From NCBI GenBank assembly GCA_016287865.1, contig JAEEXP010000005.1, positions 1 to 54,362 of the forward strand: 54,362 nucleotides of DNA. Reading direction: 5' to 3'. A model generated the notes under the pieces. It was not told the DNA's origin, did no database searches, and saw only the letters and a list, made by a program, of their open reading frames with translations. Shown one piece after another: positions 14,752-47,805 of the stretch. Origin of the DNA: Caryophanales bacterium. Lineage in GTDB: Bacteria > Bacillota_I > Bacilli_A > Izemoplasmatales > UBA1188. Within the stretch, counting starts at the first letter, position 1; every line of letters starts with the position of its first letter. A program made the translations under genes and the position numbers.

Positions 14752-17184
14752 TTAACTCCTCTCTTTCTCTTTCACTAACTTGTATAAGGCAAGATATTCC
14801 TTGGCACATTTTTCAAATGAATTCTTTGATTCCATTGCTTGTTTAATCAAAGCCTTCCACCCTTTTTTATCATTGAAATATGTGTCCTTCGCAAGATTAA
14901 CTGTATAAATTAAATCTCTTGAATCATAATTATAGAATTTGAATCCATTACCTTTCTTATTCATGAACTCAAAGTTTCTAATCGTATCATTTAAACCACC
15001 AGTCTGTCTAACTACTGGGATAGTACCATATTTTAAGGCAATCATTTGCGATGTGCCACATGGTTCTATTCTTGATGGCATTAGGAATATATCCGCGCCT
15101 GCGTATATATATTCCGCTTTTGTTCCATAATAGTCAAGGAAACATTTTATTCTAGATGGATATTTAGCTTCAACTTCTCTAAATCTTCTCATTATTTCAG
15201 GATCACCTACACCAAGTAGAACGATTCTTACTCTTTCATCTTCCATAATGGAATCAATACTATCTAGAATTAAATCAAATCCTTTGATTTGGTCAAGTCT
15301 TGAAACCATACCTATTACGAATTCATCACCATTATTACTAAAACCGCAAAGGTTTAGTAAGAATTCTTTATTGATAGGTTTGTTCTTATAAACTGTCTTG
15401 ATGTTATAATTGGCTTTAATTTCAATATCAGTTTCTGGATTAAACTTTTCATCAAGACCATTTACTATACCATAGATATCTCTTTGACGTCTCATAATAC
15501 TATCGTGGAGATTTCCGGAATAGTATTCATATTTTAATTCTTCTGCGTATGTCTTAGAGACAGTCGTTAAGATGTCCGCACTATTAATACCTACTTCAAG
15601 TAAATTAACCTTACTGCCTTGAACGATATAATCAAAATTAAACTTATCAATAACGTCTCTTGAAGTTTCGCCTTGATAGTTAAGGTTATGAATAGTAAGT
15701 AATGTTTTAGAATCAGCGTATTCTTCGTATTTCTTCTTAAAAAGAGTAAATAAAGTAGTATGCCAGTCATTTAAATGGAAGACATCAACTACGATATCAT
15801 TCTCTTTTAAATATTCAAGAGTCGCATAAGAATAATATGCGAATCTTTCTGGATCATCTTCATATCCATAGATTTGTTCTCTATCGAAATACATATATAA
15901 ATCTAGGAAAACAAATTCCACATTATGAAGTATTTGTTTATATGTGGAAATATGATATTCCTTAGAATCAATTTCAAGTTTAATTTCTGAATCCTTTTCA
16001 AAGTTTTGGAAGTATTTATCCTTAATCTCTTTATATAAAGGTAGGAATACTCTAACCTTTGCGCCAAGCTTAGCTAAACTAATTGCAAGAGATCCAACCA
16101 TATCCGCAAGTCCACCTCTTTTAATGAATGGTGAACATTCCGCACTAAGTATACAAACACTAGGCATATAAAGTGATTTAATGATTTGGCTCTTCTCAGT
16201 TAAAAGTGGTTCATCAGGTTTTCCTTTTAAATGTAGGCCTTCTTCAATAATACACTCTTTATCAATAATCGCATTTTCAACTATGCTTCCTTTCTTGATA
16301 ATTGCGTTATTCATGATTATTGAGTTGATTACTTTAGCTCCTTCTTCTATTACTACTCTTCTAAATAAGATTGAGTTTTCAACTGAACCATAAATCATAT
16401 CTCCAGTCGCAATAGATGAACATTTAACTTCACTTCTAGGCCCAAAATAACTTGGAGGGTTAATTGGGTCTTTAGTTCTAAATTGGAACTCTTCTTCCTC
16501 TAAGTGGTCTTGAAGTCTTTTCTTTAAGATATACATTGAAACGTTATAGTATCCTTTAACGGTTCTTATGTATTTAGAAAATCCATTATGAATATATGTC
16601 GCAGTCTTAATATTTAAAGATCTGTCATATAACTCAACGATATTTCTTAAAGATGATGAACGATATAAAGAGATAAACTCCATTAACTTTTCTTTCTTTA
16701 AAATGAAAGTATAAAGTCTTTCGCCTTCAGAGTTAATGACTTGAGTAATATCCGCACCTGATTCTATATGATAATTAAGTAAATCGTTAAAGTTAATTCT
16801 CCAAATTAAAGTCGCAGGACTAATAATCGCATAGTCTTGAAGAGACCTTCTAAAGAATTCCATTTGTTCACTTAAACGTTCAAATGATATGAATTCTTCA
16901 TCCACTGGACTAGTTACTTTTGGAGGAAGAATAAAGATACCATCAAGTCTTCTTTTAAGGTTATATCTATCGCCTGACCCTATATGGTCATATAGAGATC
17001 TATAGTTACCACCAGGGAATACTCCAACACTCGTAATATCGCTAAATGTAGCGTTAGTAAGGTTTCCATCAATAATACGATACTTACTAAAGAATGGGAT
17101 GGCTCCTGGAGCTCTATGTTTACTCATTAAGCTGAAGAATAGTTTTGAAGATGCATCAATTATGAGGACCATTTCTTTATTCAT
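14752..17184 (-). CDS. GlgD-GlgA fusion: ADP-glucose pyrophosphorylase-like subunit plus glycogen synthase
   Basis: One uninterrupted 810-residue frame. Residues 1 to ~330 are GlgD-like: IPFFSKYRIIDGNLTN, SVGVFPGGNYRSLYDHIGSG and a left-handed beta-helix tail of hexapeptides (SIIMNNAIIKKGSIVENAII). The GGxGxRL nucleotide loop of catalytic GlgC is replaced (IIDASSKLFFSLM), as in the regulatory GlgD subunit. Residues ~340-810 are a GT5 glycogen synthase: ILSAECSPFIKRGGLADMVGSL with the ADP-glucose Lys, HLNDWHT, TIHNLNYQG, VSRLDQIKGFDL and the acidic motif RIEPCGTSQMIALKYG. Elsewhere these are usually separate neighbouring genes. GAGGGGG marks the start, which overlaps glgC by 8 nt. Confidence 0.93.
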   Translation of the reverse strand: MNKEMVLIIDASSKLFFSLMSKHRAPGAIPFFSKYRIIDGNLTNATFSDITSVGVFPGGNYRSLYDHIGSGDRYNLKRRLDGIFILPPKVTSPVDEEFISFERLSEQMEFFRRSLQDYAIISPATLIWRINFNDLLNYHIESGADITQVINSEGERLYTFILKKEKLMEFISLYRSSSLRNIVELYDRSLNIKTATYIHNGFSKYIRTVKGYYNVSMYILKKRLQDHLEEEEFQFRTKDPINPPSYFGPRSEVKCSSIATGDMIYGSVENSILFRRVVIEEGAKVINSIIMNNAIIKKGSIVENAIIDKECIIEEGLHLKGKPDEPLLTEKSQIIKSLYMPSVCILSAECSPFIKRGGLADMVGSLAISLAKLGAKVRVFLPLYKEIKDKYFQNFEKDSEIKLEIDSKEYHISTYKQILHNVEFVFLDLYMYFDREQIYGYEDDPERFAYYSYATLEYLKENDIVVDVFHLNDWHTTLFTLFKKKYEEYADSKTLLTIHNLNYQGETSRDVIDKFNFDYIVQGSKVNLLEVGINSADILTTVSKTYAEELKYEYYSGNLHDSIMRRQRDIYGIVNGLDEKFNPETDIEIKANYNIKTVYKNKPINKEFLLNLCGFSNNGDEFVIGMVSRLDQIKGFDLILDSIDSIMEDERVRIVLLGVGDPEIMRRFREVEAKYPSRIKCFLDYYGTKAEYIYAGADIFLMPSRIEPCGTSQMIALKYGTIPVVRQTGGLNDTIRNFEFMNKKGNGFKFYNYDSRDLIYTVNLAKDTYFNDKKGWKALIKQAMESKNSFEKCAKEYLALYKLVKEKERS

Positions 17185-31952: not shown

Positions 31953-34706
31953 TTATTCTCTCTTTAAAGCATTAGCAGCAATCTTAATACCACGTTTAAG
32001 TGTGTGACCCATAGCTTTTGGAAGGAGTGTATCAAAGTTAGTTGCGTAGATACTACTCTTCTTAACTAAGTGAGCAGCATCAAACTTACATTGAAGTACG
32101 CATTGTCCACAACCAACACACATATTAGGATCAACTACTGCCTTACCACAAGATAGACAACGTGAAGCTTCTTTCTTGATTTGTTCTTCAGTGAGGATTC
32201 CTCTATTATCTTTATAACTCTTAGTGTCTACTTTTAGATTCTTTGGAACTTCTCTTTTAGCTTTATCAAAGCCATTTAAGTCGATATTAGTATGATTGAG
32301 TTCAGTATAGAGTTTTCTATCACGACCAGCATCAAGAAGTTGTCCTGGCCATACAAATCTATGAATTGAAATACTAGCTTCTTTACCATCTGCGATAGCA
32401 TTAATTGCGAATGATGGACCATTTAATACATCACCACCAACGAAGATATCTGGTTCATTAGTTTGTCTTGTGAATGGATCAGCAAGAACTGTACCACGTC
32501 TAGTAATTTGAACTTTAGTACCCATAAAGAGATTACCATAAGCAAATGATTGTCCAATAGCTTCAAGTACACAAGTACATTCAACTACTTGAGTATTTGA
32601 TTCATCGTATGATGGATTAAATCTACCATTAGCATCTTTTACGCTTGTACAAGCTTTGAATTCAATACCTTTAAGAACTCCATCTTGAACTTTGAAAGCT
32701 TTAGGTCCCCAAGAGTTATTGATTTCAATTCCTTCAGCGATTGCTTCTTCAAGTTCATCTTCGGCTGATGGCATTTCTTCTCGTCTTTCTAAGCAGAATA
32801 GTTTAACTTTATCAGCGCCTTGTCTAATAGCGGCTCTTGCAACATCCATTGCAACATTACCGCCACCAACCACTACTACAGTGCCAGATAATTTCTTGCC
32901 CTTACCTAAATTGATATCTCTTAAGAAATCAATTCCACCAAGGATATTTTCATTTTCTTCATCTTCAAGACCAAGTTTTCTTGAGTTTTGAGCACCAATA
33001 CCAACAAAGAATGCCTTGAATCCTTCTCTTCTTAATTCATCAATTGAACAATCTTTACCAACTTCAAATCCAGTCTTAAACTTAACTCCAAGTTCTCTTA
33101 AGATATCAATTTCAGCTTCAACAACATCCTTTTCAAGTCTGAAGTTAGGAATACCAAGTGTAAGCATACCACCTAACTTTTCTTCCTTTTCAAAAACTGT
33201 GATGTCATATCCATACAAACTTAAATAATAAGCACAAGAAAGTCCTGAAGGTCCAGCACCAATAATCGCAATCTTCTTAGATGAATAATCATGAATCTTC
33301 TTAGGAATAAATCTAGTTTCAGCATTTAAATCCTTTTCAGCAATAAATTTCTTAATATCATCAATTGCGATAGCTTGGTCTACATCACGTCTAGTACAGT
33401 GAAGTTCACAAGGGTGGTTACAGATTCTACCACATACCGCAGGGAATGGGTTATCTTTCTTAATTAATTCTAAAGCTTCTGTATATCTTCCTTCAGATGC
33501 CATCTTAATATATCCTTGAATAGAGATATGTGCAGGACACCAAGTCTTACATGGTGCAGTACCTGTCTCAGGTATTACGTTTTCTCTTTCAAATCTATAG
33601 TCGATATTTCTTTCAGCTCTAGCTACTGTATTCTTAGATAGAGGATGGCTAAATTCAATCTTAGTCTTAGTGCATTCATTAAGTTTAACACCAAGTCTAA
33701 TTGCGTTAGTTGGACAGTTTTCAACACACTTACCACAAGCAACACAATTAAGTGGATTGATTTCAGATCTATAGTTAGATGCGACAGCATCTGTAGTCTT
33801 AAATTCTTCAACAGGACGAAGACCGAAACAAGCACAACCACAGCAGTCACAGATTGCGGTAGTATTACCATCTTTAATAGATTCAATATTAGGAATACAA
33901 TGCATTAAACCTTCGTCTTCGCAATCCATTAAGATTTTATAAGCTTCTTCTCTAGTAATTTCTCTATCTTTACCAGTTCTTACAAAGTACTTCGCAGCTT
34001 TACCAAGTTTTAAACATCTATCATTAGGAAGGTGTCCACAACCATCACCCATAGATGATCTAGACACTCTACATGAACATTCACCAACTGAGAAATAATC
34101 ATATTTATTTAAATAGTAATCAAGGTTATCTCTATCATCTACTGGTTCACCTTTAGGTAGAGCTCTTGTGATAGGAATAACTCTCATAAGTCCATATCCA
34201 TCAGGAATCATAGGACCCATAGTTTTTAGTCTATCATGTGTATATTGGTTAAATGCACGTCTAATTTCAGGATGGTTTTCAGCATTAGGTGATACAACCA
34301 TAATCTCAAGTAGTCCTGGAGCAAAAATAGGTAAGAAGTATTCAAAATGACTATCATTTTCAAATAAATCTTCTCTAACAGTACCAATCCACGCTAAATG
34401 GTGACCTACTTCTCTAGTTTTCTCTATTGTCCATCCAAGCTTTTCAGCAAGATAATCATCTCTTCTAATCTTTCTTAAACCAATTGCGATACAGAAATCA
34501 CATTCTTCATCAGATAGAGATCCTGCGAGAGAATAATATTCAGGAGCATTAGCATCTATTTTATTAAGCATTCCAGAAGGTCCGCCAATAATCTTCGCAA
34601 GCTTAACAACCTTTTTTCTTAAAGGTTTATCACCATCAGCGATAGGTTTTCCTTCCCACATTATTACATCTTCAGTTTGAAGTTTTACTATTTCTTTTTC
34701 AGCCAT
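31953..34706 (-). CDS. Multidomain Fe-S / FAD / NAD(P)H oxidoreductase (GltD-like core)
   Basis: 917 residues in several modules. The N-terminus (1 to ~310) is Cys-rich, with an early helical part, ECSCRVS and CDCCGCACF. A ferredoxin motif follows (CVACGKCVENCPT, ~328-340). Next is a GltD-type core: the helical Fe-S domain (CKTWCPAH...CGRICNHPCELHC), an FAD loop (IAIIGAGPSGLSCAYYLSLYG) and an NADPH loop (VVVVGGGNVAMDVARAAIRQGA). The C-terminus has CLSCGK and CVGCGQCVLQC. No glutamate synthase large subunit is present, so it more likely moves electrons between NAD(P)H and ferredoxin-like carriers. Its true partner is unknown. AAGGAAAG marks the start. Confidence 0.85.
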   Translation of the reverse strand: MAEKEIVKLQTEDVIMWEGKPIADGDKPLRKKVVKLAKIIGGPSGMLNKIDANAPEYYSLAGSLSDEECDFCIAIGLRKIRRDDYLAEKLGWTIEKTREVGHHLAWIGTVREDLFENDSHFEYFLPIFAPGLLEIMVVSPNAENHPEIRRAFNQYTHDRLKTMGPMIPDGYGLMRVIPITRALPKGEPVDDRDNLDYYLNKYDYFSVGECSCRVSRSSMGDGCGHLPNDRCLKLGKAAKYFVRTGKDREITREEAYKILMDCEDEGLMHCIPNIESIKDGNTTAICDCCGCACFGLRPVEEFKTTDAVASNYRSEINPLNCVACGKCVENCPTNAIRLGVKLNECTKTKIEFSHPLSKNTVARAERNIDYRFERENVIPETGTAPCKTWCPAHISIQGYIKMASEGRYTEALELIKKDNPFPAVCGRICNHPCELHCTRRDVDQAIAIDDIKKFIAEKDLNAETRFIPKKIHDYSSKKIAIIGAGPSGLSCAYYLSLYGYDITVFEKEEKLGGMLTLGIPNFRLEKDVVEAEIDILRELGVKFKTGFEVGKDCSIDELRREGFKAFFVGIGAQNSRKLGLEDEENENILGGIDFLRDINLGKGKKLSGTVVVVGGGNVAMDVARAAIRQGADKVKLFCLERREEMPSAEDELEEAIAEGIEINNSWGPKAFKVQDGVLKGIEFKACTSVKDANGRFNPSYDESNTQVVECTCVLEAIGQSFAYGNLFMGTKVQITRRGTVLADPFTRQTNEPDIFVGGDVLNGPSFAINAIADGKEASISIHRFVWPGQLLDAGRDRKLYTELNHTNIDLNGFDKAKREVPKNLKVDTKSYKDNRGILTEEQIKKEASRCLSCGKAVVDPNMCVGCGQCVLQCKFDAAHLVKKSSIYATNFDTLLPKAMGHTLKRGIKIAANALKRE

Positions 34707-43745: not shown

Positions 43746-43776
43746 AAATAGGAGTCGGTTAAATCGACTCCTATTT
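43746..43776 (-). terminator. Terminator of the ABC-CvpA-RluA operon
   Basis: A perfect 12-bp stem AAATAGGAGTCG/CGACTCCTATTT with a 7-nt loop and a T-run on the minus strand. The TAG stop of the lipoprotein gene is part of the stem. Confidence 0.92.
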
Positions 43777-44934
43777 AAAATTAATATAAGTAATTAAATC
43801 TTCAATTGAATAGTATTTATTGAATCCAGCTTTCTCAACTGTAGAACCATCAATTCTTTGAGTTGAATAAACAATTCCTTTGTTTGTGCCTTCAATTTCA
43901 TATAGAGTAATACAGTTTCCAACAGTAGTTGAACTCATATTATATCTTGAGATTTCAGTCTTTATTTCATCAGTAACCACTACTTCTGCGATATCAATCC
44001 ACTTTTGATTGATTTGATAGAAGGCATCGCCTCCACCAATGATACATTCATTATCATCATCCATAACGTATGTACCTAAACGTTCAATCTTTAATTCATC
44101 TATTTTAGAAATATGATTAAAACAGTTTCTATTTCTATTTAGAATGATTGTGTTTGGTCTAATACGTTTAATGTAGTAAGGACCAGTTGCCTTTTCAATG
44201 AATGAACAAGTTCTAAGATAAGTGATATCACCTTTTATGAAACCAAATTCAAAAGTTTGTGGGCTTACTGGAATATCAGTATCTACAAAGCTTTGTGAAA
44301 CAATATAAACATTTAATAGTCTCTTTTCTGTTTCATTTAATTCTCTTGTAGTTTCAATCTCTAACATTCTATCAGATAAAGTTCTAATTCCTTCAATATG
44401 AGCTTCACTATATTTAGTCTTACTATTTAAATCATTATAGTATTCACTTAATCCTTTAACTGGAAGACTCATATAAGCTATATTTTCATTTGATGGATCA
44501 AACATTACATAATAAGTGAAGAGTAAATCTTTTGAATCATATACAGCACCAGTATTTGATGCGATACCATCTTTTAAAGTAATTATATACTTATATGTAT
44601 TATTTTCAGTTTCAGTTACTCTTAAAGAGGCTGGAGATGTGTAGAAGTATCCATCAACCTCTTTTCCTGATTCATCTTTAATATCATAGATATAATTATT
44701 ATTTCTATCTTTAGGGAATAGTTTTAAATATACTAAATCTAAAACATCTTCATATGTTTCATCTTCATAAACAAGTGGGTTATAGTAACCATACACATAT
44801 TCATAACCTAATTTAAGACCATTACCTTTGTGATAGTCACCATTAATTCCGGTTGTCTTAAAAGTATAAGCACAAGCGCTTAGTGAAAATACAGTTATTA
44901 AGGATAATATTAAGAGTAATAATCTTTTCTTCAT
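43771..44934 (-). CDS. Lipoprotein resembling family-5 solute-binding proteins
   Basis: A 387-residue secreted lipoprotein: signal peptide, then lipobox SLSAC (Cys21). The stretches DSKDLLFTYYVMFDPSNENIAY and ATGPYYIKRIRPNTIILNRNRNCF match two conserved blocks of OppA/DppA-type binding proteins, but the protein is ~120-150 residues shorter and no permease genes adjoin. It may be a diverged binding protein, perhaps with a changed role beside the two MacB-like proteins encoded upstream. AAGGAAG marks the start. It is the last gene of the operon. Confidence 0.7.
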   Translation of the reverse strand: MKKRLLLLILSLITVFSLSACAYTFKTTGINGDYHKGNGLKLGYEYVYGYYNPLVYEDETYEDVLDLVYLKLFPKDRNNNYIYDIKDESGKEVDGYFYTSPASLRVTETENNTYKYIITLKDGIASNTGAVYDSKDLLFTYYVMFDPSNENIAYMSLPVKGLSEYYNDLNSKTKYSEAHIEGIRTLSDRMLEIETTRELNETEKRLLNVYIVSQSFVDTDIPVSPQTFEFGFIKGDITYLRTCSFIEKATGPYYIKRIRPNTIILNRNRNCFNHISKIDELKIERLGTYVMDDDNECIIGGGDAFYQINQKWIDIAEVVVTDEIKTEISRYNMSSTTVGNCITLYEIEGTNKGIVYSTQRIDGSTVEKAGFNKYYSIEDLITYINFK

Positions 44935-44938
44935 ACTT

Positions 44939-46231
44939 CTACTTCCTTATCATTTCTCTGAGGTCTTTTTCCCTCTCAATGATTATATCATCTTTTGTGA
45001 CTGGATGAATAAACTTAACTCGATATGCGTCTAGCGCAATTTCAGAGCCACTATATTCTACACCTTTATTGTATTTATAGTCACCAAAAATTGGGTGACC
45101 TACATAAGACATCGAAAATCTAATCTGGTGGAATCTTCCAGTATCAATAGTAACATCAACTAAAGAATAGTTATCAATTTCTTCTACTACTTTATAGTGT
45201 GTAACACTATTTTTCCCTGATTTCTCATCAATATAAGCTATTCTTTTATCTTCATCTTTTGAAAGTTTTAAAGTAATAGTTCCGCTTTTCTTTTCAAATT
45301 TTCCAAGAACTAGAGCTTGATAAGTTTTCACAGGTCTTTCACAATTGAGTCTCTCAGTAGCCTTAGTAGACTTACTAAAAACCATAAGTCCACTCACATT
45401 TCTATCAAGTCTTGAGATTAATGCGAGATAGACATTGCCAGGTTTATTATATTTAAATTTTAAATATAACTTAACTTGGTTTAATAAATCGTCATTATTA
45501 TATTTATCTTCTTGAGATAACACTCCACAAGGTTTATCAACCACAATTACATGGTTATCTTCATAGTAGATATCTAATGACATTTCATATTTAATAATAT
45601 TAAGTGTCCTCTCATTATCTACTAAGTCTTCATGGCGTGTATCACCTAAATTATAAAATGATGTATTTTTAATGTTTTCTTTTAAAGACATTGAGTGATC
45701 CATCTTTATGCAATCAGAATCTGATGTGATAATAATCGCTCTTGAATCAATTGCCTTTAAATCATTAATCTTTAAATGAGGTTCTTTAAGCATTAGCTTA
45801 AGATACTCACTTTTAGTTTCTTTATATCCTCTTTTGATTTCATCAATTGAATCATCTTTAAGACCATTTGTGTCATAGTTAACTCCAAGAAGGAACATCT
45901 TTTTAACTAATGTTTCATCTATTAGTGATAAGTATAAGGCAATAATACCTCCATCACTATAACCAACCACATTAACTTCATCTATTTTAAGTTCATTAAG
46001 AAGTAAATATGCATCCTCAGCCATCAGTTTATATGAAAGTTTTCCTTTAGCTGATTCACCATGACCTCTTGAATCCATTAAGATTAAATGATAATCAGAT
46101 AAGCTATCAATTAATGAATCATACGTATGAGAATCTTCAGAGTTTCCATGGAGAAAAAGGATAGATTTACTTCTATCTTTATTGTATTCAGTAAATGATA
46201 TCCTTTGTCCATTAGAAAGTGTTTTAAACAT
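44939..46231 (-). CDS. Fusion of alpha/beta hydrolase and RluA-family pseudouridine synthase
   Basis: One 430-residue frame. Residues 1 to ~212 are an alpha/beta hydrolase: oxyanion block LFLHGNSEDSHTYD, DSRGHGES, nucleophile elbow VGYSDGGI, an Asp in ITSDSD and His in DTRHEDL, so a full triad is possible. Residues ~216-430 are a RluA-type synthase: IYYEDNHVIVVDKPCGVLSQ, catalytic Asp in ISRLDRNVSGLMVFSKS (the usual His of HRLD is Ser) and DTGRFHQIRFSMSYVGHPIFGD. No S4 domain is present. The gene has no ribosome site and begins 2 nt after the cvpA-like stop. RNA target and hydrolase substrate are unknown. Confidence 0.88.
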   Translation of the reverse strand: MFKTLSNGQRISFTEYNKDRSKSILFLHGNSEDSHTYDSLIDSLSDYHLILMDSRGHGESAKGKLSYKLMAEDAYLLLNELKIDEVNVVGYSDGGIIALYLSLIDETLVKKMFLLGVNYDTNGLKDDSIDEIKRGYKETKSEYLKLMLKEPHLKINDLKAIDSRAIIITSDSDCIKMDHSMSLKENIKNTSFYNLGDTRHEDLVDNERTLNIIKYEMSLDIYYEDNHVIVVDKPCGVLSQEDKYNNDDLLNQVKLYLKFKYNKPGNVYLALISRLDRNVSGLMVFSKSTKATERLNCERPVKTYQALVLGKFEKKSGTITLKLSKDEDKRIAYIDEKSGKNSVTHYKVVEEIDNYSLVDVTIDTGRFHQIRFSMSYVGHPIFGDYKYNKGVEYSGSEIALDAYRVKFIHPVTKDDIIIEREKDLREMIRK

Positions 46232-46233
46232 TA

Positions 46234-47805
46234 TTATTCAGCTTTGAAAATATCTCTATAAGTTTCGTATTGTTTTGTAGTTAAGTGTCCGGCAGCAAGT
46301 TCTGTAGCAAGGGCAGCATTGATAGCAGCATACTTTACCGCATCAACTTTAATTTCAATCTTACTATCAGGATTTGCGCCATTATAGTAATTAATTAAAG
46401 CAGGAAGAATATCTGATTCACCAAGTTCTTGAGCGAGTTCAACTGCATCAATCACAGATGTATCACTAGCATTTGCGTAGTTAAGTACTGTAGAAATAGC
46501 TAAAGCTTCTTTATCGAAGTCGATATTATCAAAATTAATAGATCCTGCGCCATAGTATTTTTCCATAACGCCTTTTAGAACTTGTTTACAAAGTGGAGAA
46601 GCGGTTAATGCATTCTTAACTTCTTGTTCTGTCTTAACTGTCTTTGATGTGAAGAGGTTAAGTAAATCTGGAAGTGATAGAATATTAGCTTTTAATTCTT
46701 CAAATGTATAGTTATGTACATCCACATACTTAAGTAAATCAGCCATATTTGAACCAGCTTCATTTTTACTCTTATCAATTAATACTTGAACGAGTACTGA
46801 TGGGATTTTATCTTTATAAGGATCTTTATAATAATCAAATCCTTCTAAATACTCACTACCACCATTCATGAGTGACTTGAGAAGTTGTGGTTTAGCATCT
46901 TCAGCTACATCGCTAAATACATATTTAACGAGATCACCCATAATGAGAGTAATAGTTGTATCATCTCCAAGTTCTTCTCTTAATGCATCAAGTTCAGTTA
47001 AAGCTTCACCGAGAGCGTCTAGTACTTTAGTGATTGCTTCTTTATCTTCTAAAGATACTCCTGATAATTTTACATTCTTAGATTTAAAGTTCTTAAGAAT
47101 CGCTAATAATTTATCAGCGCCTTTAGCGTCATCATAGAAATAATATGTATGAGCTTTACCTTCTGAGTCTTGTTTAGAATAACTCATGAATGGAACCAAT
47201 CTCTTTTCAAGAGCTTTTTCAGTTAAGCCAAGCATCTTAGATCCATCAACTTGATCAAACACTTTATCTACAGTTGTAGGAGTATGATCTTCAGAATAGT
47301 TCATAGTTACTGCAGTTTTAGCAGGTCCTCTAAATGCAGCTACAGGTGTTAAGAAGAATAATAATAAAACTGCCATCCAAACAACTGAAATGATTTGTCC
47401 ACCAAATAATGCAGTATTTTTGAACTTTTTCTTTTCACCTTCTTGAACCTGTTTCTTCTTTGATTTGAATAATGCATGATTAATAATAATTCCAAAGAAA
47501 CCAAAGATTAAGAATAATACAATAGAGAATGCGAAGAATAATATAAATCTCTTAATTCCACCGAATAAAACGAGGAATTGTGGAGATGCCTCCTTCATCA
47601 TTTCTATATAACTCTCAAGCTTAAGCCATGAGATAATTTTATCAGCTAGTCCAGAATCAGCTAGAACTGTACCTAAAATAAATGCTAATGCAAGTGATAA
47701 TGCGAGCATTACTAAGTGAGTAATTTTATGAGAAAGTTTTCCAATAAAACCTAAGAAGAATGCAAGCACTAAAAGCACAATGATTGCGATATCTACGTAA
47801 TTCAT
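46234..47805 (-). CDS. CvpA-like membrane protein with large C-terminal domain
   Basis: 523 residues. Residues 1-170 hold about four transmembrane segments in CvpA style (MNYVDIAIIVLLVLAFFLGFIGKLSH, then LALAFILGTVLA). The remaining ~350 residues are hydrophilic and helix-rich, with no motif that I know. CvpA itself (~160 residues) is involved in envelope stress and colicin V export, so the large extension is unusual. AGGAGG precedes the ATG, 14 nt after the ABC gene. Confidence 0.7.
   Translation of the reverse strand: MNYVDIAIIVLLVLAFFLGFIGKLSHKITHLVMLALSLALAFILGTVLADSGLADKIISWLKLESYIEMMKEASPQFLVLFGGIKRFILFFAFSIVLFLIFGFFGIIINHALFKSKKKQVQEGEKKKFKNTALFGGQIISVVWMAVLLLFFLTPVAAFRGPAKTAVTMNYSEDHTPTTVDKVFDQVDGSKMLGLTEKALEKRLVPFMSYSKQDSEGKAHTYYFYDDAKGADKLLAILKNFKSKNVKLSGVSLEDKEAITKVLDALGEALTELDALREELGDDTTITLIMGDLVKYVFSDVAEDAKPQLLKSLMNGGSEYLEGFDYYKDPYKDKIPSVLVQVLIDKSKNEAGSNMADLLKYVDVHNYTFEELKANILSLPDLLNLFTSKTVKTEQEVKNALTASPLCKQVLKGVMEKYYGAGSINFDNIDFDKEALAISTVLNYANASDTSVIDAVELAQELGESDILPALINYYNGANPDSKIEIKVDAVKYAAINAALATELAAGHLTTKQYETYRDIFKAE

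Follow-up and report, generated by a model that had tools for sequence, protein, structure and literature searches.

A conserved fusion of an alpha/beta hydrolase with an S4-less RluA-type pseudouridine synthase in one genus of uncultured rumen Bacilli

Introduction

Why should an RNA-modifying enzyme share one polypeptide with a hydrolase of the esterase type? The question is raised by a gene in a 54,362-nucleotide stretch of DNA (contig JAEEXP010000005.1, assembly GCA_016287865.1; hereafter "the window", meaning that whole stretch), in which a first-pass annotation had recognised an alpha/beta hydrolase joined to an RluA pseudouridine synthase. Each half is an ordinary enzyme type. The pairing was absent from the open-access literature that we searched, and the domain architecture appears to be unreported so far.

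Pseudouridine synthase domains have other enzyme partners. TrcP of Vibrio cholerae converts C to pseudouridine in a tRNA by the successive action, on a single base, of an N-terminal deaminase and a C-terminal RluA domain (PMC9553926), and yeast Rib2 combines a pseudouridine synthase with a deaminase of the riboflavin pathway (PMC8256712). Rib2 resembles the protein described here in that its pseudouridine synthase domain has, as fusion partner, an enzyme from a different pathway (PMC8256712), but it is eukaryotic, its partner is a deaminase and its domain order is reversed relative to our fusion.

Our analysis shows that the protein is a genuine fusion of two domains, for which trees support a single origin; most likely both halves are active and independent of one another, and the synthase was probably retargeted. 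The oddity of the fusion is genuine but modest, and a linked chemistry of the two halves is possible.

Results and discussion

One reading frame, two complete folds

The first-pass annotation gave the correct coordinates for the gene, to which we add the strand (minus), and its placement of the junction near 45590 agrees to within a few codons with our structural model. The features of the gene are as follows:

44939..46231, minus strand: gene for an alpha/beta hydrolase fused to an S4-less RluA-type pseudouridine synthase; one open reading frame coding for 430 aa
45578..46231, minus strand: hydrolase half, ~residues 1-218, with invariant Ser92 (GYSDGG), Asp173 and His200
44942..45577, minus strand: pseudouridine synthase half, ~residues 219-430, with Arg274, Asp276 (RLD), Tyr304 and Arg371 (GRFHQIR)
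45560..45580, minus strand: junction, passing in the model from a helix (207-218) to a strand (221-224)

Pfam matches in both halves of this single frame confirm the fusion. Abhydrolase_1 (PF00561) covers residues 23-117 (E 4.2e-17; 63.1 bits against a cut-off of 25.8), and PseudoU_synth_2 (PF00849, RNA pseudouridylate synthase) matches over its full length at residues 227-375 (E 9.2e-27; 94.6 bits against a curated cut-off of 26.8). NCBIfam models agree on both families for the fusion protein, each of them scoring below its own curated cut-off. Among these, the subfamily model TIGR00005 gave the synthase half 160 bits against a cut-off of 192.7; this 298-position model includes an N-terminal region, and the match to the fusion begins at model position 57.

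The AlphaFold model, built on a 22-row alignment, has a mean pLDDT of 90 and a pTM of 0.86, and both halves form complete folds in it. The hydrolase half is minimal and carries a short cap (~residues 118-160). Only ~2 residues separate the last hydrolase helix from the first synthase strand. The fused synthase has no S4 domain, and the hydrolase occupies the N-terminal position that S4 takes in other RluA enzymes. The first-pass annotation had based its view that both halves look catalytically competent on the GYSDGG elbow with its His and Asp in the hydrolase, and on RLD and GRFHQIR in the synthase; each of these is indeed there and does not vary within the genus.

Conservation and selection

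The assembly that holds the window is a fragmented metagenome-assembled genome (MAG) with an estimated contamination of 6.7%, and an artefact of assembly or binning that joined two genes was therefore among the explanations considered. We regard it as having a negligible chance of being correct and have rejected it. Seven MAGs, recovered in separate studies from sheep, yak, reindeer and other hosts, carry this fusion in the same frame, and the identity of the hydrolase half to the window copy ranges from 36 to 96% (36-41% in the more distant members). The fused frame is open and without stops in all seven genomes of the genus, one copy ending at a contig end inside the synthase half. The first-pass annotation had held that relatives with two separate genes and a stop at the junction would point to such an artefact; the relatives are all fused. 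The fusion is thus genuine and conserved in one genus of uncultured rumen Bacilli.

Between the window copy and its counterpart in genome G003 there are 30 synonymous and 13 non-synonymous codon differences, giving a dN/dS of 0.10 overall, ~0.11 in the hydrolase half and ~0.09 in the synthase half. Values of ~0.1 in each half indicate purifying selection on both. Compared pair by pair, the fusions nearly always show higher conservation in the synthase half than in the hydrolase half.

Origin and reach of the fusion

Phylogenetic trees support one fusion event, in the ancestor of the genus. The seven hydrolase halves form one clade (support 99/98), as do the six complete synthase halves (SH-aLRT 100), which lie within the S4-less RluA group (support 98) on a long stem branch (0.88). 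A single clade of the fusion synthases with those of a sister family, f3, gained no support, and it was not rejected either (AU p 0.06). The f3 synthase is a free gene, found in several f3 genomes just after a gene resembling asparaginyl-tRNA synthetase.

Outside the genus, the two halves are separate, unlinked genes, and free hydrolase homologues of ~220 aa are present in several other families of the class. The fusion was found in none of the remaining 83 genomes of the order (90 searched, including the genus) and in none of 390 others from the class (392 searched). When 84,980 genomes were scanned by pattern, hydrolase and synthase halves matched together in this genus only, though such searches may overlook distantly related fusions that combine a different type of hydrolase with a different type of RluA. 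The architecture search that the first-pass annotation had proposed hence places the combination, among the genomes scanned, in a single genus, where it is fixed and, apparently, had gone unreported.

Neither half was seen as a complete free gene in the seven genomes of the genus. The exception is a partial S4-less RluA gene, L035, cut by the end of a contig in the assembly that holds the window (G000:C9:3433-3750). It differs from the fusion, reading GRSHQIR, and could be either contamination or a second, unfused copy; its origin is unsure because of the estimated contamination of the bin.

The synthase half retains its catalytic residues

The best structural match of the synthase half was RNA-bound E. 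coli RluA (2i82; Z 26.4, rmsd 1.5 over 198 residues). Arg274, Asp276, Tyr304 and Arg371 are invariant across the genus, as is GRxHQIR (R366-R371). In RluB, Arg108 flips the base, Asp110 catalyses and Tyr140 contacts the base, matching the Arg, Asp and Tyr of the fusion; Arg mutants of RluB are inactive, and a Tyr to Phe mutant retains ~3% of activity (PMC3919597). The fusion thus has the catalytic fold and residues common to the S4-less RluA family (E. coli RluA and TruC; free homologues in Bacilli and Bacteroidota). It differs from that family in its N-terminal hydrolase, in S/QRLD in place of HRLD and in a connector that is four residues shorter.

The first of these sequence changes was noted in the first-pass annotation, as a replacement of the HRLD histidine by serine. 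The change is real: two of the six complete fusions, the window copy being one, read SRLD and the remaining four QRLD, whereas all 54 of the distinct free S4-less homologues have the histidine. Enzymes of the RsuA family have GRLD at this point, and the histidine of HRLD is customary rather than defining. Since it is not a known catalytic residue, and since the RsuA family has Gly, its loss is no evidence of inactivity; the essential Arg and Asp are kept. An S4-type RluA paralog in the same genome (L033, G000:C65) reads NRLD, so that the histidine has been lost more than once in the window's genome.

The second change affects the following feature:

45317..45346, minus strand: shortened helix-strand connector before Tyr304, ~residues 296-304; spacing from Asp to Tyr of 28 residues, not 32

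In each of the six complete fusions the spacing from the catalytic Asp to the Tyr is 28 residues, against 32 in all 54 of the distinct free S4-less synthases, and the four-residue deletion, which is lineage-wide, sits in the connector from the helix to the Tyr strand. The corresponding connector residues of RluB, 131-138, separate RluB from RluF specificity, choosing between two neighbouring uridines (PMC3919597). Because the connector sets substrate choice in RluB and RluF, its deletion is more telling than the change in HRLD. By analogy with these enzymes, the shorter connector and S/QRLD of all complete fusions suggest that the fused synthase has probably been retargeted, which would make it a natural case of an RluA enzyme with a shift of target.

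The same two changes, together with the long stem branch, could also mean that synthase activity was lost, leaving a protein in which only the hydrolase matters or in which the synthase serves as an RNA-binding or chaperone module. We consider this distinctly improbable, given the invariance of Arg274, Asp276, Tyr304 and Arg371, the conservation of the synthase half beyond that of the hydrolase half and its low dN/dS. An active but retargeted synthase remains the reading that we prefer.

The hydrolase half: an intact triad without a clear structural favourite

In the seven fusions, aligned with free homologues, Ser92, Asp173 and His200 are invariant and form a nucleophile-acid-His triad, and the motifs that flank the triad are likewise invariant in divergent members. 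The fold, triad, HGN motif and GxSDG elbow are shared with the small GxSDG-elbow alpha/beta hydrolases encoded by free ~220-aa genes of Bacilli; compared with these, the hydrolase of the fusion is joined to RluA and has a short cap, and it has no characterised close homologue. More distant likenesses include Bacillus PhaZ (8ynv), arylesterases, valacyclovir hydrolase and RsbQ. PhaZ is the nearest PDB sequence (E 6.8e-15), its match being confined to the first 115 residues. In structural alignments (VIA-align), residues 1-220 matched solved esterases, hydrolases and C-C hydrolases about equally well (Z ~22-24), none of them standing out enough to suggest a substrate.

Conservation of the triad bears on whether the hydrolase might have a structural role, as a folding or docking module that replaces S4 or as an anchor to the CvpA-like protein encoded next to the fusion, with hydrolysis secondary. 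Its placement where S4 sits in other RluA enzymes would suit such a role, as would the presence, in six of seven genomes, of a CvpA-like gene immediately upstream. However, an invariant Ser-Asp-His triad with invariant flanking motifs in divergent members argues for catalysis, and free S4-less synthases exist without any partner; a chiefly structural role is accordingly unlikely. The narrower idea that the hydrolase substitutes for S4 in binding RNA is weakened by charge: the hydrolase half is acidic (pI 4.6-5.3), which disfavours an RNA-binding role.

Gene neighbourhood

The fusion is the fourth of five genes on the same strand: those for two ABC transporter proteins come first and that for a CvpA-like protein third, and a gene for a lipoprotein is last. 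Its immediate neighbours are:

46234..47805, minus strand: gene for a CvpA-like (colicin V production) membrane protein, 2 bases upstream of the fusion
43771..44934, minus strand: lipoprotein-like gene with weak SBP_bac_5 (solute-binding-protein) similarity (Pfam 1.6e-5, below the curated cut-off)

The lipoprotein-like gene follows the fusion in the same direction, with a terminator-like hairpin at 43776-43746. Of the "envelope-type operon" described in the first-pass annotation, the CvpA-like membrane gene holds up, six of the seven genomes having a homologue immediately before the fusion, but the genes farther out vary. This only steady neighbour is the best lead to the physiological setting of the fusion. 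Pfam Colicin_V matches were obtained for the CvpA-like proteins of relatives, and the window copy has no Pfam match. The protein has a long extra region and is fast-evolving, with 24-27% identity in the more distant genomes.

The neighbourhoods of free relatives speak to a possible link between the two activities. No RluA gene was present in 15 neighbourhoods of free hydrolase homologues, where the adjoining genes that were read (thyA/folA/acyltransferase, aroD, ribosomal protein L25, starch synthase) have unrelated housekeeping functions, and this hydrolase family was absent around eight free S4-less RluA genes.

Proposed function and alternatives

The data above show the fusion, its conservation and its single origin, together with intact catalytic residues, the predicted fold and selection; the two activities, their independence and the retargeting are inferred from them. 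Once, in the ancestor of the genus, a small free alpha/beta hydrolase gene fused in frame with a free S4-less gene of the RluA family, the hydrolase taking the N-terminal place of the S4 domain found in other RluA enzymes. Most likely both halves are active. The synthase half would use the standard Asp mechanism to turn a specific uridine of rRNA or tRNA into pseudouridine, with Arg274 flipping the base out, Asp276 catalysing, Tyr304 contacting the base and Arg371 supporting the Asp. For the hydrolase half we expect cleavage of a small ester, thioester or lactone through its Ser92-His200-Asp173 triad. The two activities would work independently on one chain, with the target of the synthase shifted.

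Independence of the halves has points against it. The fusion has been kept across divergent species without complete free halves, and the union itself could be useful; in the predicted structure, the very short junction would also be compatible with coupling. In a coupled enzyme, the hydrolase would act on the same RNA, for example by de-esterifying a modified uridine before or after isomerisation. TrcP provides a precedent, being likewise a bacterial protein in which an RluA-type domain lies C-terminal to a second catalytic domain and both act on the same nucleotide (PMC9553926), and coupling would fit both the retention of the fusion in 7/7 genomes of the genus and the change of the synthase specificity region in step with the fusion. 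The N-terminal part of TrcP, though, combines a helical RNA-binding domain with a cytidine deaminase for which action on that same tRNA base is proven, whereas that of our fusion is a serine hydrolase of the alpha/beta type with no known RNA link. The AlphaFold model contains no insertion like the long helical RNA-binding domain of TrcP, the hydrolase half is acidic, and the neighbourhoods that were read around its free relatives reveal no tie to RNA modification genes. These observations make coupling quite unlikely, and a more specific form of it, in which the serine hydrolase processes an ester-bearing modified nucleotide at or near a pseudouridylated site of altered uridine specificity, very unlikely. 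The suggestion in the first-pass annotation of a linked function on a modified nucleotide finds no support in the same charge and neighbourhood data.

Two independent activities are therefore our preferred reading. If the hydrolase does act on RNA, the protein would represent a new kind of RNA-modification chemistry; if it does not, it would be an enzyme fusion whose halves have no evident functional link.

The window also holds a second enzyme fusion: at 14752-17184 (minus strand), an 810-aa protein joins a GlgD-like N-terminal part, which has a hexapeptide/LbH match and no NTP_transferase match, to a glycogen synthase (Glyco_transf_5), with glgC-like and glgB-like genes adjoining. At 31953-34706 (minus strand), a 917-aa Fe-S and FAD oxidoreductase is encoded beside a gene for a HypA nickel chaperone.
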